DNA of 64,000 nucleotides from Schlesneria paludicola DSM 18645 (GTDB taxonomy: Bacteria > Planctomycetota > Planctomycetia > Planctomycetales > Planctomycetaceae): contig CAMAYU010000010.1 of the NCBI GenBank assembly GCA_945862235.1, positions 1 to 64,000 on the forward strand, given 5' to 3'. The notes below the pieces were generated by a model. That model did not search any database, was not told the origin of the DNA, and saw only the letters and a list, made by a program, of their open reading frames with translations. The position numbers and the translations under genes were made by a program. Shown here in pieces: positions 7,993 to 49,800 of the stretch (positions within the stretch are counted from its first letter, which is position 1; each line of letters starts with the position of its first letter).

Positions 7993-8362
7993 CGTGCGAA
8001 TCCAGTGAATGAGGCGGCGACAGGCGAGGCAAGCGGGGCGGGAACCGTGGGCAGATCCAAGCGGGGGCAGCATTGTGGCAGCAGGCTGGGTCGGGGGCAA
8101 TTGCCGGGTTGATGATCCACGAATCGCGCGGCATTCCCGATCATCGGCGTTGCGACACGTAAGCATGAAGCGATCTGGAATCGACTCCCGTCCCGAGTGT
8201 GGCCGACTCGAAACAGTCGGTGTCGCCAAACGTCACCATGATGTCTGCCCGTCTCAATTCTGCGAAATGCCGCTGGCATCACTTCAATCCTGTTCTACGT
8301 TCCCTGAGTCGAGGGGGCTGAAAGCCAAGCCCGTCCTCGTCTGTGATGAGTGCGAGATTCGT
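7993..8362. other. Intergenic region upstream of the PSCyt1 gene
   Basis: This region should hold the leftward promoter of the PSCyt1 operon and whatever once drove the rightward pseudogene. Open frames on both strands are weak extensions of neighbours. No terminator or recognisable promoter boxes are seen. Confidence 0.4.
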
Positions 8363-8867
8363 TTGAGATGCTGTGCCTTGCGTCGATTGCAAGTGATCGT
8401 TCCCGCAGTGTTGTTTGTGTTGGATTCGGCTTCGTAGAGCGAAGCGCAGACGCTCAATCAGAAAATCGTCACGTTCCTCAGCGGCAAGGCGGGGACACGC
8501 ATCGGTGGCGGCGAGTGTGCTCATGTGGCGACGGAGGCACTGCCGGTGGCCGGTGCCGAGTTCACCTCGACTGATCTCGGAGCCGATTCGCCCTCGGCCG
8601 GTGACTACGTGTGGGAGACGCTCATTAAGACGGTCTCCGTGACCAGTGGCATCCGCACCGAACGACGATCTCTACCTTCAGTTCCGGTATTGCCAACACG
8701 ATACGATGTCGAGCTTTTCCACCGGCTGGTTCACCACGACTTCGACGACCGTTCCGACTCTGGTTCTGCCCAACGGCCAATCCGTGGCGATCATCAAGGG
8801 CGGCGGTTACGAAATCTACAGCAGCACGAGCGGAGTGGTGATGGTCCGCAAGCTGACGCAGTGAGCC
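8363..8867 (+). pseudogene. Broken gene for a small secreted protein
   Basis: A reading frame beginning near the TTG at 8363 encodes a signal-like segment (LQVIVPAVLFVLDSAS). It meets a TAG at 8435 and continues in the same frame as SEAQTLNQKIVTFLSGKAG, GGGECAHVATEALPVAGAEF and SPSAGDYVWETLIKTVSV. Past about 8640 the coding signal moves to another frame, with YLQFRYCQHD and then LPNGQSVAIIKGGGYEIYSS, ending at TGA near 8864. An in-frame stop plus a frame change points to decay. I recall similar secreted proteins in Planctomycetes but cannot name a function. Confidence 0.5.
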
Positions 8868-37169: not shown

Positions 37170-38738
37170 ATGAGTCCACCGCCTGCCCCCGTCGAATCGT
37201 TGCGCCAGATTGATGCCGCCTGCGACCGGTTTGAGGCGGAGTGGCAAGCGGGACACAAGCCGCGTGTCGAGAACTTCCTCGCGCACGCTCCCGCGTCCGA
37301 TTACCAAGCGTGGTTGTCGGCGTTGCTTGATGTGCAGCGCGAGTTGATTCTCCGAAACAACGCGGCGTCACCCATCGCTACCGCCCCGCTCTGCTCAATT
37401 GCTGCGCCGCCGATGTCCGTCGCGATCGTTCGGCTGCGAGTGATCGCGGGTCCCTACACTGGTCGCGAATTCCAATTCGATCAGCACGAGACCCTACTCG
37501 CTGGACGCTCCTCGTTCGCCCAGTTGCGACTGGTCGATGATGTCCATTTCTCTCGCAATCACTTTCGGCTAGAGGTCAATCCGCCCGAGTGCCATCTGAT
37601 CGACCTCGATAGCACCAACGGCACGTTCGTCAACGGGAAGCGGGTTCGCCAGGCGATGCTCAACGACGGTGATGTCATTCAAGTGGGCGACACCGAACTC
37701 ACGCTGACGAGCTTCGATCCAAAGGCAACTCGTAGGACGGGCACTCCTCCCCGTCCGCCCGTACCCCGGCCCACTAGGTCTGGAAGAAACAACTCAAACG
37801 AACAACGGCTTGGTTCAAGCGAGCAACCGCATCCACGCGTGCCGAGCGAGACGCCCCGTCCGGACCAAGGGGTCTGGATTACGAGATTAGCTCAACCGGA
37901 TCGGGTTCCCTCCATCCCCGGATATCAAATCGAGAACGAAGTCGGCTGGGGCCATCTCGGCATGACCTATCGTGCGACGCGACTGGCCACCGGCGAAGCG
38001 TGTGCCTTGAAGCTGCTCACCTCCTCGGATCGGATGAATGAACGCACCGTACAGATCTTTCTGCGGGAAGCCGGTGTGCTCAACCAACTGCATCATCCGC
38101 ACATCGTCCGCCTGCTCGATCTCGGTTCGGCGAACGGCCTGCTCTACATCGCGACCGAATTCGTTCCCGCCGTGAAGTGGGATGCCGTGATGGAACACGC
38201 CACTCCAGCGCATCGCATCCGAGTGGCGTGCGGCGTCATCTGCCAAGTCCTCGACGCGTTGGAGTACGCCCACACGCGGTCGTTCGTCCATCGAGACATC
38301 AAGCCATCCAACGTGCTGGTCCGGCGCGAGGGCCGGCGCTTGGTCGCCAAGCTCAGCGACTTCGGCCTCGCCAAACGCTACGCCGATGCGGGGCTGAGCC
38401 AACTGACGCGCGACGGCGATGTCCTCGGTTCGCTGGCGTACATGTCGCCTGAACAGTTCATCGACTCGCGCCACGCCAAGCCGCCGTGCGACATCTACTC
38501 GACCGGCGCAACGCTCTATCGTTTGCTCACCGGCCACGACCCGTTCGTCTTCGCGAAAGGAACGTGCAAATTCCGCGCGATCCTCGAAGACGAACCGGTC
38601 CCATTACGAAAGAGCTTCCCGCAGGTTCCCGCCGCACTGGCCGACATCGTTCACCGCGCTCTCGCCAAGCAACCGTCCGACCGCTTCGCCTCCGCCGCCG
38701 AGATGCGCCACCAACTCCTCCCGTTCGGGCGGCGGTGA
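37170..38738 (+). CDS. Ser/Thr protein kinase with FHA domain
   Basis: The ATG at 37170 has AAGGAG eight bases upstream and gives 522 residues. A short helical N-terminal domain common in Planctomycete kinases comes first (ACDRFEAEWQAGHKPRVENF). An FHA domain follows at about 82-180 (LLAGRSSFAQLRLVDDVHFS; DLDSTNGTFVNGKRV). The kinase domain runs from about 249: NEVGWGHLGMTYRATR, ACALKLL, FVHRDIKPSNVLV around 373 and LSDFGLAKRY, all with catalytic residues intact. No membrane segment is seen. The linker between FHA and kinase (from 37734, RTGTPPRPPVPRPTRSG) is Pro/Arg-rich and begins with an in-frame repeat motif found in other linkers. It probably acts with the upstream sigma factor. Confidence 0.92.
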   Translation: MSPPPAPVESLRQIDAACDRFEAEWQAGHKPRVENFLAHAPASDYQAWLSALLDVQRELILRNNAASPIATAPLCSIAAPPMSVAIVRLRVIAGPYTGREFQFDQHETLLAGRSSFAQLRLVDDVHFSRNHFRLEVNPPECHLIDLDSTNGTFVNGKRVRQAMLNDGDVIQVGDTELTLTSFDPKATRRTGTPPRPPVPRPTRSGRNNSNEQRLGSSEQPHPRVPSETPRPDQGVWITRLAQPDRVPSIPGYQIENEVGWGHLGMTYRATRLATGEACALKLLTSSDRMNERTVQIFLREAGVLNQLHHPHIVRLLDLGSANGLLYIATEFVPAVKWDAVMEHATPAHRIRVACGVICQVLDALEYAHTRSFVHRDIKPSNVLVRREGRRLVAKLSDFGLAKRYADAGLSQLTRDGDVLGSLAYMSPEQFIDSRHAKPPCDIYSTGATLYRLLTGHDPFVFAKGTCKFRAILEDEPVPLRKSFPQVPAALADIVHRALAKQPSDRFASAAEMRHQLLPFGRR

Positions 38739-38762: not shown

Positions 38763-38861
38763 GGGGTCAGGTGGTTCAAAGTTCATTCTTCGCCGGGTCA
38801 GCATGATCGACTTTCGCGAGCGGGTTCACGGCGAAAAATGAACTTTGAACCACCCGACCCC
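38763..38861. repeat. RAYT-associated palindromic repeat, copy 1
   Basis: The 33-base left arm (GGGGTCAGGTGGTTCAAAG...) and 33-base right arm (...TTTGAACCACCCGACCCC) flank a 33-base spacer; two arm positions mismatch. It lies between two kinase genes. A TTG and an ATG inside the right arm open frames into the next gene, but that kinase is better started at 38929. Confidence 0.92.
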
Positions 38862-38928
38862 TGATTTGTCGAATCACCCCTGTTCTAATCAGTCCATCCA
38901 CGTCCGCTGTCCTGAAAGTCTGCTCCCG

Positions 38929-41919
38929 ATGACTGACCAAGCGCCGCCGAATTCCTCTCAGCCGAACCGAGACGAGTCGAACCAGCAGTCCATGGGCAGT
39001 CGCGAGACGATCGCTCCGAGCGGACTCGAACTCGATCCGAAAAACAGCGGGCCGTTTCCCGCATTGCCCGTGACGTTCGGGCGGTTCGAGGTCCGGAAGC
39101 ATTTGGGCAAGGGAGCGATGGGAACGGTTTATCTCGCGTTCGATCCCGAGCTGAACAAGCCAGAGATCAGCAATCAGGTGGCGATCAAGATTCCGCTGCT
39201 TCAGACGAGCGATGACTCGACGCTGTTGGAACGCTTCTGTCGCGAGGCTCAAGCGACCGGTGCCATGAACCATCCCAACATCTGCAAGCTGTACGAAGTG
39301 GGAGAGATCGCCGGGACGCACTACATCTCGATGGAGTACATCGACGGTCGGCCGCTCGCCGATTACATCGGGCAGGACCAGCAACCGCAGTTGCCGCGAC
39401 AGGTGGCGGGGATCATCCGCAAGCTCGCGCAGGGCTTGGCACACGCTCACGAACGAGGCTTCATCCACCGCGATCTCAAGCCGACCAACGTGATGATCGC
39501 CACGAATGGGCAGCCGAAAATCATGGACTTCGGCCTCGCCCGCCGCTTCGGGGTGACGGGCGATATCCGGCTGACGCAGTCGAACACCATTGTCGGTTCG
39601 CCCGCGTATATGTCCCCCGAACAAGCCCGCAGCGAGAACGATACGCTCACTCCCGCGAGCGATATCTACAGCTTGGGGACTTTGTTCTTTGAACTGCTCA
39701 CATGCGAACTGCCGTTCAAAGGGCCACTGGCCGTTGTGCTGGGAATGGTCGCGCTGAACCGCGTTCCGAAACCGTCGTCGATTCGCCCCGATGTCGATCC
39801 GCGTTTGGAAGTTCTTTGCTTGAAGATGCTGGAAAAGAAAGTTGAGTCTCGCCCGAAGTCGATGACCGAAGTCGCCGACTCGCTGGCCGAGTGGCTCCGC
39901 CCCGCCGCATCGAAGAGCAACCCTGTCATGTCATTGATGGAAGAACCGGTCGCGCTCACACCGAAGAAACCCGCCGCACCGAGCGCCGCCAAGACCGATG
40001 GGATTGAGAATCAAAAGCGTCGCGTCACCGATCTGCTCGACCAGCACGAGTACGGCGCGGCGATCAGTCATTTGGAAAAAATGACCCATCTCAAAGACGC
40101 CCGCTTCGCACCGCTCGTCGCGTGGGCCAAACCGAAGTTGAAGGAGGTCCGCGCCACCGAGCAAGAACTGCGCAAGTCCTCCGCCCCCACCTGCGACACC
40201 GCCGAGCAACTGCTCAAACACTACGACTACGCCGGTGCGGTCGCCTTGCTCACCGCCGTCCCCTTCGCCTACCGCAGCCTCGAACTCCGCGACCTGCTGA
40301 ACAAAGCGACCGAACTCCACGACGAGTGCGAACACCTTCAGCGGAGCATCCAAGAAGCGATCCACACCGGCGACAAAGACGAACTCCCCGGCCTCGTCAA
40401 AGGACTGCTCAAACTCAAGCCCAACAACAAGGCGATCAAACAACTCGCCGCCGAAGTGAAGGAACTCGGAGCCGCCAAAGTCATCGCCCGTAGAAAAGGC
40501 CAGCGGCAAATCTTTGATCCTGCTGGTCGTGTCGTCGAACCGCAACACATCGCGTTGAGCATCGTCCTCGTGGTGGGACTGTTCGCGGGTGTCAGCCTGA
40601 TGGTCAGGAACTATCTTGCGACCAGCCAGCCTCCCAAACCAGTTCTGACACCCGGCCTCATCCAGCCGAAGCCAGTTCCGCCAATGCTTGGACAATCCTC
40701 TGCCAACGACGAACTTCTGAAGCGAGCTCCGGCCGATGTGGTGGCCTTCGAGAAAAAACTGTTCAAGGTATTTCCGGAGCAATTGACGTGGCAGGAAGCA
40801 AAGAAGAGATGCGAAGGAATGGGTGGTCGGTTGGCCCAGGTCAATTCGCAGGCCGAGAACGACTTTCTGATGAAACTCGCCGTCGAACGAAAACTTGCGG
40901 CCATCTGGCTGGGCGCGACAGACGAAGTTGAAGAGCGAACTTGGTTGTGGAGCAATGGCGCTGGATTGGCCTTCAACAACTTCGCCAATGGACAACCCGA
41001 TCGCAGTCGTTCTGGCAAGCGTTACCTGGTGATGATGCTCAAAGGCCAAGTCGGCTGGTGGTGCAATCAGCCATCCCAATCCGACGACTGGTCGCCCGGT
41101 TTTGTTTGTGAGTGGAACGCACCGGCGGTTGCCAATAAACCGGCGATCCAGCCTCCGCCCGTCGCCGGCTTCCAAGGCTGGACGGAGCTGTTCAACGGTC
41201 GTGATCTCACCGGTTGGGTGAAGGCGGATAACCACCTTCCGGCTGCGTGGAAGGTCGCGAACGGCTACATGGAGGTCCTACCGGGAGCCGGACCCATCAT
41301 GACTGCCAAGACGTTTCCCTTGGACTTCAAGCTTTACGTGGAGTTCTGGATTCCCAAGGAAGCCAACAAGTCTGGGCAAGCTCGCGGCAACAGTGGCATC
41401 TTCCTGTTGGGCCGACACGAGATTCAAATACTCGATGTGTTTGAGAATCCCCTGCCGCCGCCCGCAATTACAGGTCTTGGAGCCTTGTACAACGCTGTGC
41501 CATCACAGGGCGTGACGGTTCGTCCGCCAGAAACGTGGCAAACATTTGAGATCACTTTCCACGCGCCGCGCATTGACGCCGTCGTCAAGCGGAATGAACC
41601 GGGTCGTCTGACGGTGATTCATGACGGAAAGGTCATCATCGACAACGCTGCGGTCACCGAGAACTTCAGCCCAGGAAGTCTCAACACCGATTACGGCCAG
41701 CCCGGTCCGCTGGGCCTGCAAGAGCATGGTTCACCGGTGCGATTCCGCAACATCAGTATCCAAGAATTACAGAGTCAGCCGGTCCTGCGGGCGGCCAATT
41801 CCGCGGGTGACCCCGGATGTGTTGTGGCGTTGCGGGGTCGGGTGGTTCAAAGTTCATTTTTCGCCGGGCGGGTTGTCTTGGATGTTGTGAACGGTTCCTC
41901 GGCGAAAAATGAACTTTGA
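38929..41919 (+). CDS. Ser/Thr kinase fused to C-type lectin and DUF1080 domains
   Basis: This 996-residue membrane protein has a cytoplasmic kinase domain at about 50-305 (KHLGKGAMGTVYLAFD; VAIKIPLL; FIHRDLKPTNVMI around 180; IMDFGLARRF; SPAYMSPEQA), complete in its catalytic residues. A helical region leads to one transmembrane segment at about 539-558 (IALSIVLVVGLFAGVSLMV). Outside lie a C-type lectin domain at about 614-730 (LTWQEAKKRCEGMGGRLAQV; WLGATDEVEERTWLW) and a DUF1080 (3-keto-disaccharide hydrolase-like) domain at about 747-947 (WTELFNGRDLTGWVKADN; GNSGIFLLGRHEIQILD). The layout suggests carbohydrate sensing relayed to phosphorylation. The last 28 residues and the stop are encoded by repeat copy 2. 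Confidence 0.92.
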   Translation: MTDQAPPNSSQPNRDESNQQSMGSRETIAPSGLELDPKNSGPFPALPVTFGRFEVRKHLGKGAMGTVYLAFDPELNKPEISNQVAIKIPLLQTSDDSTLLERFCREAQATGAMNHPNICKLYEVGEIAGTHYISMEYIDGRPLADYIGQDQQPQLPRQVAGIIRKLAQGLAHAHERGFIHRDLKPTNVMIATNGQPKIMDFGLARRFGVTGDIRLTQSNTIVGSPAYMSPEQARSENDTLTPASDIYSLGTLFFELLTCELPFKGPLAVVLGMVALNRVPKPSSIRPDVDPRLEVLCLKMLEKKVESRPKSMTEVADSLAEWLRPAASKSNPVMSLMEEPVALTPKKPAAPSAAKTDGIENQKRRVTDLLDQHEYGAAISHLEKMTHLKDARFAPLVAWAKPKLKEVRATEQELRKSSAPTCDTAEQLLKHYDYAGAVALLTAVPFAYRSLELRDLLNKATELHDECEHLQRSIQEAIHTGDKDELPGLVKGLLKLKPNNKAIKQLAAEVKELGAAKVIARRKGQRQIFDPAGRVVEPQHIALSIVLVVGLFAGVSLMVRNYLATSQPPKPVLTPGLIQPKPVPPMLGQSSANDELLKRAPADVVAFEKKLFKVFPEQLTWQEAKKRCEGMGGRLAQVNSQAENDFLMKLAVERKLAAIWLGATDEVEERTWLWSNGAGLAFNNFANGQPDRSRSGKRYLVMMLKGQVGWWCNQPSQSDDWSPGFVCEWNAPAVANKPAIQPPPVAGFQGWTELFNGRDLTGWVKADNHLPAAWKVANGYMEVLPGAGPIMTAKTFPLDFKLYVEFWIPKEANKSGQARGNSGIFLLGRHEIQILDVFENPLPPPAITGLGALYNAVPSQGVTVRPPETWQTFEITFHAPRIDAVVKRNEPGRLTVIHDGKVIIDNAAVTENFSPGSLNTDYGQPGPLGLQEHGSPVRFRNISIQELQSQPVLRAANSAGDPGCVVALRGRVVQSSFFAGRVVLDVVNGSSAKNEL

Positions 41920-41932
41920 ACCACCTGACCCC
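41834..41932. repeat. RAYT-associated palindromic repeat, copy 2
   Basis: Arms of 33 bases flank a 33-base spacer. It overlaps the 3' end of the kinase/lectin gene: its left arm is read as RVVQSSFFAG and its right arm ends the frame as AKNEL-stop. It lies 30 bases before the RAYT start. Its spacer resembles that of copy 6. Confidence 0.92.
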
Positions 41933-41962
41933 TTGGCTTTGTTTAGCGGTGGGGAGTTTGTC

Positions 41963-42997
41963 ATGGCACGCAGCGCTCGTTGGTCGATCACTAATGGGCT
42001 GTACCACGTCATGAACCGGGGTTTAGAGAAACGCGACATCGTGCGTGACGACGTGGACCGTCACGAATGGATGCGGCTGTTGGACCGCGTCGCCACACGC
42101 TGCGGCTGGCGCGTCTTCGCTCATGTGTTGCTCGACAATCACTTTCACCTCTTTCTGCGAACTCCAGATGCCAACCTCTCGGCTGGGATGCACGACCTGC
42201 AAAGCGGCTACGCGACGCTGTTCAACCAACGTCACGAGCGAGTCGGCCCGCTGTTCCAGGGCCGTTTCAACTCAATCCTGATTGAGAGCGAAGGTCACTC
42301 GTGGGAGCTGAGCCGCTACGTGCATCTCAATCCCGTGCGCGCCAACCGCACGCGCGATCCGGCCGCTTATCACTGGAGCAGTTATCGGTTCTTTCTCAAT
42401 CCGAGCGGCTCACCGGCGTGGCTCGATTGGCGAACGGTTTTTGCCGAGTTCAGTCAGCAGGAATCGGCGGCCCGCGTCGCCTACAAACGCTTCGTGGAAG
42501 CCGGCATCGAACAACCACCGTTCAGTCCGCTTCGAGACGTTGTGGATGGCTGGTTGTTGGGAGGTCCGGCGTTTGTCGAACAGATGCGTCAACTTTCTGA
42601 TGACGATGTTCCGAGCGATCAGGGGTCGGGTGGTTCAAAGTTCATTTTTCGCGGTGAGGCGACCAGCGAAGCACACTTAATGCCGCCGCGAAAAATGAAC
42701 TTTGAACCACCTGACCCCGCAGCGATTCTGAACGCGGTGGCGACCGCGTTCAGAATGAGTCCCGTCGCAATTCAACACCGCGGCGGCCAAGATAACGCCG
42801 CTCGTGAAGCGGTCGTGTGGCTGTTGCGTGAGTTGCTGCACGAGCCAGTCACTGCGGTTGGCGAATTGCTCGGCGGCGTCGGCAAAAGTACGGTCTCCGA
42901 AACGTACCGCCGAGCCGTCCATCGCCGGGACCAAGACGAGTCATTCCGGCAGTTGGTCGATGAAGTCCGGGATCGGTTCGTTTCAGAGGGGTCGTAG
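41963..42997 (+). CDS. REP-associated tyrosine transposase (RAYT, Y1/HUH family) with DnaA-like HTH
   Basis: This 344-residue protein belongs to the IS200/IS605-like single-strand transposases that act on REP palindromes. The N-terminus MARSARWSITNGLYHVMNRG is typical. The HUH metal site is H60-F-H62 (LLDNHFHLFLRTP) and the likely catalytic Tyr is Y83 (QSGYATLFNQRHERVGPLFQ). RYVHLNPVRA follows. The C-terminal part (about 255-344) resembles the DnaA-type helix-turn-helix often fused to these proteins (VVWLLRELLHEPVTAVGELL). Between them, residues 220-252 are encoded by a copy of its own presumed target repeat, in frame (GSGGSKFIFRGEA; PRKMNFEPPDP). The ATG at 41963 is preferred over the one inside repeat copy 2; GGTGGGGAG lies upstream. 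Five further repeat copies surround it. Confidence 0.93.
   Translation: MARSARWSITNGLYHVMNRGLEKRDIVRDDVDRHEWMRLLDRVATRCGWRVFAHVLLDNHFHLFLRTPDANLSAGMHDLQSGYATLFNQRHERVGPLFQGRFNSILIESEGHSWELSRYVHLNPVRANRTRDPAAYHWSSYRFFLNPSGSPAWLDWRTVFAEFSQQESAARVAYKRFVEAGIEQPPFSPLRDVVDGWLLGGPAFVEQMRQLSDDDVPSDQGSGGSKFIFRGEATSEAHLMPPRKMNFEPPDPAAILNAVATAFRMSPVAIQHRGGQDNAAREAVVWLLRELLHEPVTAVGELLGGVGKSTVSETYRRAVHRRDQDESFRQLVDEVRDRFVSEGS
42622..42718. repeat. RAYT-associated palindromic repeat, copy 3 (inside the RAYT gene)
   Basis: Both 33-base arms are present, with a 31-base spacer unlike the other copies. It lies within the transposase reading frame between the catalytic domain and the C-terminal HTH domain and leaves the frame open. 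Confidence 0.93.
42725..42756. repeat. Perfect 14-base inverted repeat inside the RAYT gene
   Basis: ATTCTGAACGCGGT pairs exactly with its complement around a four-base loop. It starts six bases after repeat copy 3 and encodes the start of the HTH domain (AILNAVATAFR). It is unrelated in sequence to copies 1-6. Confidence 0.8.
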
Positions 42998-43007
42998 TGA
43001 AGAGGTC

Positions 43008-43106
43008 GGGGTCAGGTGGTTCAAAGTTCATTTTTCGCCGCCAACCCGACCACACCTCTCAATGCACCCTGCCCGGCGAAAGAGGAACTTTGAACCACCT
43101 GACCCC
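43008..43106. repeat. RAYT-associated palindromic repeat, copy 4
   Basis: The left arm is intact (GGGGTCAGGTGGTTCAAAG); the right arm has substitutions near its inner end (GAAAGAGGAAC instead of GAAAAATGAAC). The spacer is similar to that of copy 5. It lies between the RAYT and sulfatase genes. Confidence 0.92.
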
Positions 43107-43128
43107 TTGATTTGGGACTGACGACGAA

Positions 43129-44877
43129 ATGCGAAAACGATGTTGGAATGGGATGCGGATCGTGATGGCGGCGATGGGTGTTTTGAACTCACTCGTCATT
43201 GTCGGCGGTTCGAGCTTAGAAGCGGCGGACAAGCCGAATGTGTTGTTGATCTGTGTGGATGACTTGAAGCCGTTACTCGGTTGTTATGGCGATGCGGTGG
43301 TGAAGTCTCCGAACATGGACCGGCTGGCGGCGCGGGGGGTTCGGTTCGAGCGGGCTTACTGCAATCAGGCGGTTTGCTCGCCGTCTCGCAATGCGTTGCT
43401 CGTGGGGCTGCGGCCGCAGTCACTGGGCATCTACGACCTCGCGACGAACTTTCGGAAGGTCGTGCCTGATGCCGTCACGCTGCCGCAGTACTTCAAGCAG
43501 CACGGCTACCGCACTGAGGCGATGGGCAAACTGTTTCACGTCGGTCACGGTAACACCGAAGACCCGGCGTCGTGGAGCGTCACACATTTCCAAGCGAAGA
43601 GCATCGGCTATGCGTTGAAAGAGAACGCAGCCGAGGAGACGCGCGAGGGGGCCTTCTTCGAGAACAAAAGCCCCACCAACCTGCCGCGCGGGGCGGCGTA
43701 TGAATCGGCCGACGTGGCGGATTCAGTCTATGGAGACGGACTTGTCGCCGATGAGGCGGTCAAACGGTTGCTCGCCGCGAAGCGGCGGCCGGGCGAGCCG
43801 TTCTTTCTCGCGGTCGGGTTCCTCAAGCCGCATCTCCCCTTCTGTGCGCCGAAGAAATATTGGGACATGTATGACCGGTCGCAGTTCTCGCTCGCCACGT
43901 TGAGAGAACCGCCGCAAGCGGCTCCCGGTTATGCGCCTCAGTTCGGCGGTGAACTGCGGAACTACAAGGACATGCCCGCCAAGGGGGCGATCCCCGATGA
44001 GACGCAACGTGCGCTGATCCACGGCTATCACGCCGCCGTCAGTTACATGGATGCCCAACTAGGACGAGTGATCGCGGCTCTCGATGAGACCGGGTTGGCG
44101 AAGAACACAATCATCGTGTTGTGGGGCGACCACGGCTGGCATCTCGGCGATCACGGCATGTGGTGCAAACACACCAACTACGAACAAGCGGCGCGCATCC
44201 CGCTGATCGTCGTTGCGCCGCTAGTCACGTCGGCCCAGCGAAAGACGACCGCCTTGGTCGAGAGTGTCGATCTCTATCCGACGTTGTGCGAACTGGCCGG
44301 GCTACCGGCTCCGCGCGGAGTGAATGGAACGGCACTCGACGGAACGAGCTTCGTCAACGCCCTGCGCGAACCCGGTTCGTCGAGTGGTGTTGATCGCGGG
44401 GAGTCACCGGCCGGATCGAAGGAGTCGATCATTCACGTCTATCCTCGCAGCGGAAAGATCGGCCGCGCGATTCGGACGGCGCGGCATCGACTGGTCGAAT
44501 GGAAGCAACCCGGCGCGCCTGCCGCATCGGCTGAGTTCGAACTCTACGACTATGAAGCCGATCCGCTCGAATCGAAGAACCTCGCCCGCGAGCAACCCGA
44601 GGTCGTCGCTCGTTTGAGAACGCTGCTCGCCCAGCATCCGGAAGCCAAGCCGCAATTCGTCGCGAACGCCAAGCCCGCAGATGCCAAGCCTCCTCAGGAA
44701 CGCGAGGCACTGTTCAAGTCGAAGGACAAGAACAACGACGGCCAACTGACTCGGGCTGAGTTCCTCGCCAATCAGCCCGACGCCGACAAGGCCCCTGCCC
44801 GCTTCACGCGATTCGATGCCGACGGCGATGGCGTCTTGAGCCGCGACGAATTCGTGAACCAAGGGGCGAAGAAGTGA
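43129..44877 (+). CDS. Exported sulfatase (iduronate-2-sulfatase-like) with EF-hands
   Basis: This 582-residue sulfatase removes sulfate esters, probably from polysaccharides, outside the cytoplasm. A signal peptide ends near SLEAA. The metal site appears as NVLLICVDDLKPLLGCYGD. The formylglycine signature CSPSR starts at Cys83 (NQAVCSPSRNALLVGLRP), the type matured by formylglycine-generating enzyme. GDHGWHLGDHGMWCKHTNY near the middle completes the site. The C-terminus carries two EF-hand loops (DKNNDGQLTRAEF and DADGDGVLSRDEF), a frequent addition in Planctomycetes. It is flanked by repeat copies 4 and 5. Confidence 0.94.
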   Translation: MRKRCWNGMRIVMAAMGVLNSLVIVGGSSLEAADKPNVLLICVDDLKPLLGCYGDAVVKSPNMDRLAARGVRFERAYCNQAVCSPSRNALLVGLRPQSLGIYDLATNFRKVVPDAVTLPQYFKQHGYRTEAMGKLFHVGHGNTEDPASWSVTHFQAKSIGYALKENAAEETREGAFFENKSPTNLPRGAAYESADVADSVYGDGLVADEAVKRLLAAKRRPGEPFFLAVGFLKPHLPFCAPKKYWDMYDRSQFSLATLREPPQAAPGYAPQFGGELRNYKDMPAKGAIPDETQRALIHGYHAAVSYMDAQLGRVIAALDETGLAKNTIIVLWGDHGWHLGDHGMWCKHTNYEQAARIPLIVVAPLVTSAQRKTTALVESVDLYPTLCELAGLPAPRGVNGTALDGTSFVNALREPGSSSGVDRGESPAGSKESIIHVYPRSGKIGRAIRTARHRLVEWKQPGAPAASAEFELYDYEADPLESKNLAREQPEVVARLRTLLAQHPEAKPQFVANAKPADAKPPQEREALFKSKDKNNDGQLTRAEFLANQPDADKAPARFTRFDADGDGVLSRDEFVNQGAKK

Positions 44878-44958
44878 CATCACCCCGTAACATTGTTCAC
44901 CGATACCTCGCACGGCTGAAACGGGCGCACCGTTGTTTAACCGCGTGCGAGGCGTTGT

Positions 44959-45056
44959 GGGGTCAGGTGGTTCAAAGTTCATTTTCGCCGCCAACCCGTC
45001 CTCAACTCTCAATGCAATTCACCCGGCGAAAAATGAACTTTGAACCACCTGACCCC
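44959..45056. repeat. RAYT-associated palindromic repeat, copy 5
   Basis: The left arm is one T shorter than in the other copies (98 bases in total). Its spacer shares CCAACCCG and CTCTCAATGCA with copy 4. It lies between the sulfatase and FHA-pseudokinase genes and ends 16 bases before the latter's ATG. Confidence 0.92.
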
Positions 45057-45072
45057 CTGGTTGAGGACCATT

Positions 45073-46467
45073 ATGCAATTGCTCATCACGTCCGGGCCGG
45101 ATGCTTCGCGGGCGATTGCGCTCGGAGACGAAGGTGTGCTGCGCGTCGGGCGTGGGACCGAGTGTGAGGTTCGGTTGAACGATGCTTCGATGTCGCGCGG
45201 GCAGTTTGAGTTGAAGGTCGAAGGCGGGCGCGTGTGGCTGCGGGATGAGAGCAGTCGGTTTGGAACGTTCGTCAACGGCGTGAAGACGGCCGAGTGCGAG
45301 TTGCGGCCGGGGGATCTGATTCGCGCGGGAGAGACCTCGTTTCGTGTCGAGGCTCCGCTGCCGGACAACCGGACGACAATTGCTCCGGCTGACACGCGTG
45401 GGATGGGCACTCCTGCCCGTCCGGAGTGTGAGACGTTCGGCGTCGATTCCATCGAACGGAAGCCCCCTCACGCTCACCCTCTCCCTCTCCCTCTCCCCGC
45501 AAGGCCGGGGCGAGGGGACAAGGCGGACGGGCACGAGTGCCCGTTCTACGGTGAAGAAGAGGACGGACGAGGGCGTCCATCCTACGGGGGCTGCAATCCG
45601 CGACGATTGGCCGGGCAGACTTTTGGGCGGTTCGAAGTGCAGGCGGTTGTTGCCGAGACTCAATCGGGGATTGTGTGGCGGGCGCGGGACACGCACTTGC
45701 AGACGGAGGTCGCTCTCAAAATCTTCTGGCCCGAGCGAATGGCTGATCCGGCGGCGGTGGCTCGGTTTGAACGAGCGGCGCGAACGATGTTGCCGCTCAC
45801 ACATCCAAACCTCGTCGAGTTGTATGACTCGGGACAGGACGAGGGTTTGTGTTGGATGGCCAGTGAGTTTGTGGGAGGTGAGAACGCGGCGCAGCTCATT
45901 CATCGCATCGGGATCGCGGGGATGCTCGACTGGCGGCAGACGCTGAAGATCGCGCTGCACATCGCGCGGGCGTTGGAGTTTGCGGGACAGCATCAGATCG
46001 TGCATCGCAAGATCACGCCGCGTTCCATTCTGGTCCGGCGCGCGGATGGAGTCGCCAAGTTGGGTGGACTCGGCCTAGCGAGGTCGGTCGATGACGACAG
46101 CGCTGCGAAGGTGACTCGCGCGGGGGAGATCGTCGGCGACCTCGGCTATTGCTCGCCCGAACAATCGCTCGGCCTGCGTGTCGATGCGCGGTCCGATCTC
46201 TACAACCTCGGAGCCGCACTTTACGCCCTGCTCACCGGACGGCCTCCCTGCGAGGGCCGCAATTTCATCGAGACGCTCGACAAGATTCAAAGAGAGCCGG
46301 TCCGGCTGCCGACTCATTACCATCTCGCGATCCCGCCGTTGTTGGAGGGCGTGGTATTGCGTTTGTTGGCGAAGCGGCCCAATGATCGGTTCGAGGATGC
46401 GAAGGCGTTGCTGCTCGATCTCGAACGAGTCACGAAGTATCTCGGTGAGACGGAGCTGCTGGAATGA
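45073..46467 (+). CDS. FHA domain protein with degenerate Ser/Thr kinase domain
   Basis: This 464-residue protein has an N-terminal FHA domain at about 1-95 (GVLRVGRGTECEVRLNDASM; DESSRFGTFVNGVKTAE). After a repeat-derived linker comes a kinase-like domain from about 180 to 460. The ATP-anchoring Lys is kept (EVALKIFW, K216), but the Gly loop is degenerate (VVAETQSGIVWRARD). The catalytic Asp is Lys (IVHRKITPRSIL, K313), and the metal-binding DFG is GLG (KLGGLGLAR, G332). It is therefore probably a pseudokinase that binds phosphopeptides rather than a working enzyme. The ATG at 45073 is preferred over a TTG inside repeat copy 5. Confidence 0.9.
   Translation: MQLLITSGPDASRAIALGDEGVLRVGRGTECEVRLNDASMSRGQFELKVEGGRVWLRDESSRFGTFVNGVKTAECELRPGDLIRAGETSFRVEAPLPDNRTTIAPADTRGMGTPARPECETFGVDSIERKPPHAHPLPLPLPARPGRGDKADGHECPFYGEEEDGRGRPSYGGCNPRRLAGQTFGRFEVQAVVAETQSGIVWRARDTHLQTEVALKIFWPERMADPAAVARFERAARTMLPLTHPNLVELYDSGQDEGLCWMASEFVGGENAAQLIHRIGIAGMLDWRQTLKIALHIARALEFAGQHQIVHRKITPRSILVRRADGVAKLGGLGLARSVDDDSAAKVTRAGEIVGDLGYCSPEQSLGLRVDARSDLYNLGAALYALLTGRPPCEGRNFIETLDKIQREPVRLPTHYHLAIPPLLEGVVLRLLAKRPNDRFEDAKALLLDLERVTKYLGETELLE
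45408..45594. repeat. Repeat-derived linker inside the FHA-pseudokinase gene
   Basis: Several short repeats lie head to tail: GGGCACTCCTGCCCGTCC near 45413, a triple CTCTCC run near 45478, CCCCGCAAGGCCGGGGCGAG near 45495, and ACGGGCACGAGTGCCCGT, a palindrome, near 45526. All are read in frame and encode a Pro/Gly/Arg-rich linker between the FHA and kinase-like domains. Related sequence occurs at 7412, 13323, 37734 and 48077. Confidence 0.65.
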
Positions 46468-46483
46468 GATCGGAGAGTGTCGC

Positions 46484-46582
46484 GGGGTCAGGTGGTTCAA
46501 AGTTCATTTTTCGCCAGGTGGGCCGTGTTTAAAGTTGTGAACGGTGTCACGGCGAAAAATTAACTTTGAACCACCTGATCCC
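46484..46582. repeat. RAYT-associated palindromic repeat, copy 6
   Basis: The left arm matches the consensus except near its inner end (TCGCCAGG); the right arm has AATTAAC and GATCCC changes. The spacer resembles copy 2 (GTTGTGAACGGT). It lies 16 bases after the pseudokinase stop. The following 238 bases up to the transglutaminase gene show no gene. Confidence 0.92.
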
Positions 46583-46820: not shown

Positions 46821-49800
46821 ATGACCATTCGCGTTGCGCTCCGGCATGTCACTGAGTACCGCTATGACACGCTGATCAACTTGGGGCCGCAAGAAGTGCG
46901 GTTGAGGCCGGCTCCGCATTGTCGGACGCCGGTCCCGAACTATTCGCTGACGATCGAGCCACCGGATCACTATCTCAATTGGCAGCAGGATCCGCACGGG
47001 AACTTTGTCGCGCGGCTGATGTTTTTGAAGCCGACTCGCAAGTTCCGCGTGGCCGTTGATTTGATCGCCGAGATGACGGTCATCAACCCGTTCGACTTCT
47101 TCATCGAACCGGCTGCGGAACAGTTCCCATTTGAGTACGCCCCCGAGTTGGCGAACGATCTCGTGCCATTCTTGGAGCGATTGCCGGTCGCGCCGCAGTT
47201 GGCGAAGTACCTGCGCACGATTGATACCTCACCGCGCAAGACCGTCGATTTTCTGGTCGATCTGAATTTGAAGCTCCAACGGGACGTGAGCTATCTGATC
47301 CGGATGGAGCCGGGCGTGCAGAGTCCGGAAGAGACACTCACAAAGGGATCGGGGTCGTGCCGCGACTCGGCGTGGTTGATGGTTCAGGTGCTGCGCAGCT
47401 TCGGTCTCGCGGCGCGGTTTGTATCGGGCTATCTGATTCAACTGACGCCCGACCTCAAGCCGCTCGAAGGGGCGGCGGGAGCGACGGAGGACTTCACCGA
47501 TCTCCATGCGTGGGCCGAAGTCTTTCTACCCGGAGCCGGTTGGATCGGGCTGGACCCTACGTCGGGATTGCTCACCGGCGAAGGACACATCCCGCTCGCG
47601 GCAACACCGTCTCCACAGACCGCCGCTCCGATCAGTGGCTGCGTCGATGAGTGCAAGGTTGAGTTCGGGTTCGAGATGACGGTCACTCGCGCGCACGAAG
47701 ACCCGCGCGTGACGAAGCCGTACACCGACGAAGAGTGGGTCGAGATCGACCGGCTCGGGCACGTTGTGGATGAGCGACTGCAACGCGGTGACGTGCGGCT
47801 GACGATGGGGGGCGAGCCGACGTTCGTCTCCATCGACGACATGGAAAGCCCCGAGTGGAACACCGGCGCGGTCGGACTGCACAAGCAACGGCTCTCCGTC
47901 GAGCTGATTCATCGGCTGCGGTCTCGCTTCGGGCCGGGTGGCTTGCTGCACTTCGGTCAGGGGAAGTGGTATCCGGGCGAGTCGTTGCCGCGTTGGGCCT
48001 ACACCTGCCTCTGGCGGAAGGATGGACAACCAATCTGGTCGAATTCGAAATGGCTCGGCGGGGGTGAGCCACCTTGTAGGACGGGGACTCCTGCCCGTCC
48101 TGGTTTGAGTGACAAAAGCGAAGACAAGCAGAACGGGCAGGAGTCCCCGACCTATGAAGCGAGTGTCGATCGCGCGGGACTGTTTCTGACCGAGGTCGCT
48201 CGGAAATTGCAGGTCGAGCCGCGTTGGATTCAATCGGCCTACGAAGACGTTTGGAAAACGGTCGAGCAGGAACACAAACTGCCGGTCGATGTGGACGCTC
48301 GCAAGTTTGATCTTGATGCGGACGAAGACCGCCGCCGCTTGGCGCGGATCGTGGAAAACGGCCCGACGCGCAAAGCGGGCTTCGTGTTGCCGTTGACCCG
48401 CGCGTGGTGGCAGACCCGCGCCGGATGGGTTAGCAGTCCGTGGCCGTTGCGTGCCGAACGGCTCTTCCTGTTGCCGGGTGATTCACCGATCGGGCTGCGT
48501 CTGCCGTTGGACTCACTCCCCATCGGCGGCCCGGTCAGTGCGAGGCTGCTCTACTCGATCGACCCGCTCGCCGAACGACAGCCGTTACCCGCGTACACCG
48601 AGCTGCGAGTTGCCACGCGCGGCCGACAGTTTGAACACGATCAAGTCACGATCACGGAACAGGGACGTGGCAGTGCGGCCCGCGCGTGGAAAACAACGGA
48701 GCGTGATGTCGCTAAAAAGTTGGCAACCGACGACGACGCGAATGATGCCCCCTCCGAACGATCCTCGGACTCACCGCCCAAGGGTGCCGTCCCGGATGTC
48801 GTCCGCACCGCGATGTGCATCGAGCCGCGCAACGGTCGGCTGCACGTCTTCATGCCGCCGGTCGAGTCGCTCGAAGATTATTTAGAGCTGATCGCCGTCG
48901 TCGAAGCGACCGCCGAAGCGATGCAGCAGCCGGTCGTGTTGGAGGGTTATTTGCCTCCGCCCGATCATCGCATTCAAGTGATGAAGGTGACTCCCGATCC
49001 CGGCGTGATCGAAGTGAATGTCCATCCGGCGGGATCGTGGGACGAACTGAAAGAGATCACGACGGGTGTCTATGACGAGGCGCGGCTGACTCGGCTGGGG
49101 ACCGAAAAGTTTCAGCTCGACGGCAAGCACTCGGGGACGGGCGGCGGCAATCACATCGTGCTGGGAGGACCGACTCCCGCCGACAGTCCGTTCCTCAGGC
49201 GGCCCGATCTGCTGCGAAGCTTGGTCTCGTACTGGAACAACCACCCTGCCCTGTCGTACATCTTTTCGGGCCAGTTCATCGGGCCAACGTGTCAGGCTCC
49301 GCGCATCGATGAAGGCCGACGCGACTCGCTCTACGAACTGGAACTGGCGTTCGAGCAAATCCCACAGGAAGGCCCCGTCCCGCCGTGGTTGGTCGATCGC
49401 GTCTTCCGTCATCTGCTGGTGGACATCACGGGCAACACGCATCGGGCTGAGTTCTGCATCGACAAGCTCTACTCGCCCGACCACGCGAACGGACGGCTCG
49501 GGCTGCTGGAGTTCCGCGCGTTTGAAATGCCGCCGCACGCGCGGATGAGTCTCACGCAGCAGTTGCTCGTGCGCGCGTTCGTAGCGTGGTTCTGGGATGA
49601 GCCGTACCGCCAACCGTTGGCTCGCTGGGGAACGGCGCTGCATGACAAGTTCATGCTGCCGCATTACCTCGCCGCCGATCTGCGCGATGTGCTGCGCGAT
49701 CTCAAACAGGCGGGCTTCGTGTTTCGAGACGACTGGTTCGCGCCACACTTGGAGTTCCGCTGCCCGCCGATTGGCGAGATCGCTCGCGACGGCATCACGC

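Follow-up and report, generated by a model that had tools for sequence, protein, structure and literature searches.

A dispersed family of long palindromes clustered around a TIRYT-type HUH transposase gene, with a diverged sister pair in another genus

Between an FHA-kinase gene and a transglutaminase gene, the window (the whole 64-kb stretch of DNA analysed here) carries six copies of a palindromic repeat, r1 to r6, all given on the + strand. The copies are 97-99 bp long, with 33-base arms around a loop of 31-33 nt. The first, r1 (38763-38861, 99 bp), occupies the junction between the FHA-kinase gene and a kinase-lectin gene. r2 (41834-41932, 99 bp) lies 30 bp upstream of the ATG, at 41963, of a transposase gene, and overlaps both the open 3′ end of the second (upstream) kinase ORF and an in-frame 5′ extension of the transposase ORF. 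r3 (42622-42718, 97 bp) lies within the transposase ORF itself and r4 (43008-43106, 99 bp) starts 10 bp past its stop codon, while r5 (44959-45056, 98 bp) and r6 (46484-46582, 99 bp) are found at a sulfatase/FHA-kinase junction and an FHA-kinase/transglutaminase-DUF2126 junction, respectively. All except r3 sit at consecutive gene junctions, and the genes at these five junctions share one orientation. A preliminary description of the locus had reported six copies of these dimensions, one at every junction from the FHA kinase to the transglutaminase gene and one intragenic; all were found at the positions above, r3 being the intragenic copy. The repeat had been seen nowhere else in the window, and this holds: the 19-base arm end has 12 matches there (up to three mismatches; chance expectation 0.01), all within r1 to r6. 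Each copy forms a single long hairpin (z from -8.8 to -12.6 relative to shuffled controls). The loops of r5 and r4 are 73% alike, and those of r6 and r2 70%. A second short repeat, a GGACGGGCACTCCTGCCCGTCC-like palindrome, occurs four times in coding regions of the window (37723-37756, 45389-45422, 45513-45546, and 48067-48100).

The transposase gene (41963-42997, + strand) encodes an HUH Y1 transposase of the TIRYT/TnpAREP type, 344 aa in length, and is the only full gene of this type in the window's genome. In the alignment both catalytic motifs are intact: the HUH motif (HFH, residues 60-62) and the catalytic Tyr119 in the Y---NP motif (Y119-V-H-L-N-P). The protein matches Pfam Y1_Tnp at 31 bits, and its predicted structure (mean pLDDT 75.8) has as top structural match 4er8, TnpArep. 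A C-terminal HTH extension (Bac_DnaA_C, HTH_23, or HTH_28) characterises TIRYT/TnpAREP subclass 2.1; here residues 253-316 match Bac_DnaA_C with an E-value of 1e-5 and a score of 25.9 bits, below the Pfam cut-off of 31.5; the domain is present in six of seven relatives, the profile of the transposase family matches DnaA domain IV at 8e-12, and the predicted C-terminal structure matches the DnaA DBD with a TMt of 0.87. An alternative in-frame ATG at 41909, inside r2, would lengthen the protein. From this ATG the right arm of r2 (41909-41932) encodes, in the transposase frame, the peptide MNFEPPDP, and r3 encodes the same peptide.

TIRYT genes have been described as Y1 transposase genes flanked by long inverted repeats with a motif of the GGGGWSAS type (GGGG[AT][CG]A[CG]) (Di Nocera et al. 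2013, PMC3733652). Here the motif is found as GGGGTCAG in the left arm of r4 and the right arm of r2, and as GGGGTCGG in the left arm of r2. The preliminary description had identified the enzyme as a RAYT acting on REP palindromes. Its membership of the TnpAREP superfamily of HUH/Y1 transposases stands, on the Y1_Tnp and 4er8 matches, but its assignment to the canonical RAYTs does not: the NCBIfam RAYT model (REP_Tyr_transpos) scores 60.3 against a cut-off of 80, a GTAG or GTGG tag was found within 6 nt of the hairpin foot at none of 99 feet, and the 33-nt arms, unlike short REPs of 20-40 nt, do not fold alone (minimum free energy of 0). Since these features are joined by GGGGTCAG ends and a DnaA-like C-terminal domain, the class TIRYT (TnpAREP subclass 2.1, RAYT group 1) fits better than that of the canonical GTAG-REP RAYTs. 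The RAYT/REP label should be replaced, and the system regarded as a well-resolved new case of the TIRYT kind. Nor are the arms unusually large, as had been thought; long arms are normal in this class.

The preliminary description had proposed a genome-wide count of the arm. In the window's genome (6.83 Mb in 377 contigs) the arm pattern has 101 matches, and a reversed control pattern none, so the repeat extends well beyond the window. Copies were collected by this pattern and the site sequences then retrieved, giving 38 complete copies (32 dispersed and the six in the window) and 23 partial copies at contig ends; a copy split by a contig break may be counted twice, and the true total is thus about 50-61. 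The copies occur in both orientations and in two forms, one of 97-99 bp with a loop of ~33 nt, which includes all window copies, and one of 62-65 bp with a 3-nt loop, which includes most of the complete dispersed copies. Recent spread is suggested for the 63-bp copies: they are 95% alike, and perfect 30-bp stems are present in 11 of 18. Across copies the arms are 94% alike; the loops, 31-35 nt in length, are ~54% alike, compared with 50% for shuffled loops. Two loops searched through the genome for a source of capture (up to three mismatches) matched only themselves. Joining of flanks, done to reveal disrupted genes, gave only spurious ORFs or positions at gene edges, except for r3, and a search for an empty site at the DNA level found none. 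The orthologous kinase was not found in 14 genomes of the same genus at E 1e-60, so there is no syntenic empty locus for comparison.

Just outside the palindrome, 31 ends carry a TGATCGTC-like tag and 27 a GGCTTCC-like tag, where chance rates would be 0.4% and 1.7%. Both tags together, TGATCGTC at one end and GGCTTCC at the other, are found in 17 dispersed copies, and no dispersed copy has two ends of the same type; this count leaves out two copies (L139 and L143) with mirror-image long flanks, taken as contig-end fold-backs. One end of each type, and never two alike, indicates that the unit has a strand and extends beyond the hairpin. From these sequences it appears to reach about 8 and 7 nt past the hairpin and to be stranded, as an HUH system working on single strands would be. 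A search for the empty target GACGATCA-GGCTTCC, in which the two tags are joined with no hairpin between them, found none. In several of the 63-bp copies (L118, L155, L162, and contig-end copies) the shared sequence continues for another ~20-50 bp beyond the TGATCGTC end, as though adjoining DNA had been copied with the element. The window copies show only degenerate flank tags, except for r3, whose left flank GCGATCA fits.

Copy r3 encodes residues 220-252 of the transposase and keeps its reading frame. In the alignment, relatives lack the segment encoded by r3, which gives an empty site at the protein level, for r3 only. Residues 214-246, which lie between the catalytic domain and the DnaA-like one, have a pLDDT of <50 and are predicted to be a disordered linker. 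An insertion of the 97-bp palindrome by itself would disrupt the frame, and one of 97 bp plus two, five, or eight flanking bases would not; the 8-base tag might be such a flank.

The closest relative of the enzyme is 61% identical over 207 residues and is encoded in a genome of another genus (G044). Its gene too has palindromes on both sides, of a family of its own, at distances of 26 bp (upstream) and 10 bp (downstream); the corresponding distances in the window are 30 and 10 bp. The G044 palindromes have GGGGTCGGG ends, TTCAAANTTCA cores, and loops of 31-35 nt; GGGGTCRGG ends, TTCAAANTTCA cores, and loops of ~31-35 nt are common to both families. There are 110 matches to the G044 arm in that genome, and five copies lie within 5.5 kb around the sister gene. 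The strong local clustering claimed in the preliminary description is far above chance in both genomes: six copies within 8 kb of the window gene (Poisson P ~7e-10) and five near the G044 gene (P ~4e-9). Loops within the two clusters are more alike than those of random subsets (p = 0.011 and 0.002), and similarity among the dispersed loops is close to random; local events thus probably account for the kinship of the copies in a cluster. Given a sister enzyme with its own matching hairpin family, the enzyme and its hairpins seem to co-evolve as a pair, a kind of arrangement that is known but has seldom been so clear. Adjoining the intact G044 gene, between two palindromes, lies a piece of a second TIRYT, from its C-terminal part and with a stop (L196, ~8153-8365; G044:C5:17152-17364).

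We consider it probable that the palindromes are short nonautonomous mobile elements resembling MITEs or REPINs, and that their ends are the TIRs of the TIRYT-class HUH transposase encoded among them. As in MITEs, the same arms bracket a putative autonomous enzyme gene and form dispersed noncoding copies. The strongest support is the G044 sister enzyme bracketed at near-equal distances by its own diverged palindromes. Recognition, cutting, and movement, and a role for the DnaA-like domain, would then proceed as follows. In single-stranded DNA, at replication forks for example, each copy would fold into a hairpin of 30-33 bp; the transposase would recognise this hairpin together with an asymmetric tag beside the foot, GACGATCA to one side and GGCTTCC to the opposite side; Tyr119 would cut beside the hairpin; and the strand would be rejoined elsewhere, often nearby. 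The DnaA-like domain may help in targeting or binding. A further idea, which we hold to be improbable, is that the loop sequence changes during spread while the arms and the loop length persist: each arm may serve to restore the other during copying, the loop being replaceable, and through the in-frame copy the enzyme or its mRNA hairpin may control the enzyme's own synthesis.

Counting against a strict link between enzyme and hairpins, both palindrome types occur in genomes without a detectable intact cognate enzyme. Among 99 relatives, the 16-base arm of the window family is found only in the window's genome, G010, and G028, and among 392 genomes of the phylum only in the window's genome; no close intact enzyme was detected in G010 or in G028, the latter being only 78% complete. 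Arms of the G044 type have 26-81 matches in four genomes of the window's genus, where the best related enzyme is only ~30% identical. The preliminary description had named an even dispersal of the arm in genomes without the transposase as one finding that would undo the link, and this is seen in part, arms being present also in genomes without a close intact enzyme. Further points weigh against the mobile-element reading: the cluster copies may be local duplicates made by other means, no empty site turned up at the DNA level, and the flank tags of the window copies apart from r3 are degenerate. The same distribution gives a small but real probability to another explanation, that the palindromes are mobilised mainly by a different transposase in trans, or are relics, and that the TIRYT gene is one more invaded locus: several other Y1 genes, ~30% identical, are present in those genomes, and r3 lies inside the transposase gene. 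What argues against this is that bracketing at near-equal distances is seen for two diverged enzymes from different genera, each with its own family, and with cluster P-values of <1e-8. Repeated bracketing and clustering in two genera are not expected of a chance target gene.

Stem mismatches per 24 average 4.6 in G010, where copies are few, and 0.7 in the window's genome, which suggests that the G010 copies are decaying relics. Enzyme fragments in contig C247 of the window's genome and beside the G044 gene also fit decaying relics. Those in C247 (L148, 680-1290) are N-terminal TIRYT remnants that appear to come from two broken copies, and the first of these shares 56-58% identity with the enzymes of the window and G044. 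Five arms of the G044 palindrome type are present in the window's genome as well; together with the C247 remnants these suggest a lost second system. In contig C627 of G028 (L045, 3815-4766), a TIRYT gene with an internal deletion over the catalytic Tyr region lies near a different hairpin, with GGTGTCAGG ends. In more distant relatives (L040, L041, L091, and L101) the gene is surrounded by simple inverted repeats with GGGGTCAG or GGGGTCGG ends. Judged from these sequences, this is likely the parent arrangement, and a TIR-loop-TIR element could arise from such loci by internal loss of the gene. Several planctomycete Y1 genes (L082, L084, L085, L087, L089, and L093) have hairpins nearby that end in GGGGACAGG or GGGGACTGG-like sequences, pointing to a widespread TIR-type family.

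The five copies at consecutive junctions of co-oriented genes, each a strong hairpin, would also suit cis-regulatory structures at operon junctions (terminators, attenuators, or mRNA stabilisers), locally duplicated and with the transposase uninvolved. We find this distinctly improbable as the main explanation, since the window's genome has about 50-60 copies in both orientations, the tags track the element and not the genes, one copy is within an ORF, an Rfam search gave no match, and a similar cluster geometry surrounds the sister enzyme in another genus. A regulatory side effect of the hairpins is possible. That the locus is a canonical RAYT system, with REPINs built of ordinary REPs, is scarcely credible, for although a TnpAREP fold, hairpin pairs with variable loops, and clusters beside the enzyme gene have all been described for REPINs, the missing GTAG/GTGG tags, the arms unfolded alone, the RAYT score below cut-off, and the DnaA-like C-terminal domain, typical of subclass 2.1.2, speak against it.

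The locus is of wider interest. Subclass 2.1 (RAYT group 1) is among the commonest groups of domesticated-looking HUH transposases, and a large survey detected no REP-like partner for it. Here there is a clean pair of enzyme and candidate substrate, and a sister pair in which both enzyme and palindrome have diverged. Trying each enzyme on the palindromes of both pairs would show directly whether hairpins of this kind are their substrates and which bases determine specificity, and the polarity tags mark the positions of first interest.

TIR families found elsewhere in the genome are moderately abundant and sometimes self-complementary and clustered, and the same study singles out a planctomycete, R. 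baltica, for its wealth of tyrosine transposase genes and of repeats flanking them (PMC3733652). The present system resembles TIRYTs and TIR families in its Y1 gene, its long inverted repeats, and a family dispersed in the genome. It differs from the TIRYTs of that study in that whole palindromes bracket the gene, with loops of near-constant length (31-35 nt) and variable sequence, and in the polarity tag, the loopless 63-bp form, the in-frame copy in the transposase, and the second, co-diverged pair. Its HUH and Y---NP motifs, the length of the protein, a C-terminal domain resembling Bac_DnaA_C, and a patchy distribution liken it to TnpAREP subclass 2.1.2 (RAYT group 1; PMC6006769), a placement made on these features. 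In that survey the surroundings of subclass 2.1 genes yielded no REP-like sequences, whereas here a dispersed hairpin family brackets the gene. In Pseudomonas, REPINs form hairpin clusters near the enzyme gene, with one family per enzyme (Bertels and Rainey 2011, PMC3116915). The palindromes share with these the dispersed single-strand hairpins of two inverted units, with conserved ends and variable loops of similar length, the clusters adjoining the enzyme gene, and the one family per enzyme; they differ in having no GTAG tag, longer arms without a hairpin of their own, and TIR-type ends. Finally, Rickettsia palindromic elements (RPE; cited in PMC3733652) are likewise palindromic repeats in frame within an ORF, but here the host ORF is that of the presumed mobilising enzyme itself.
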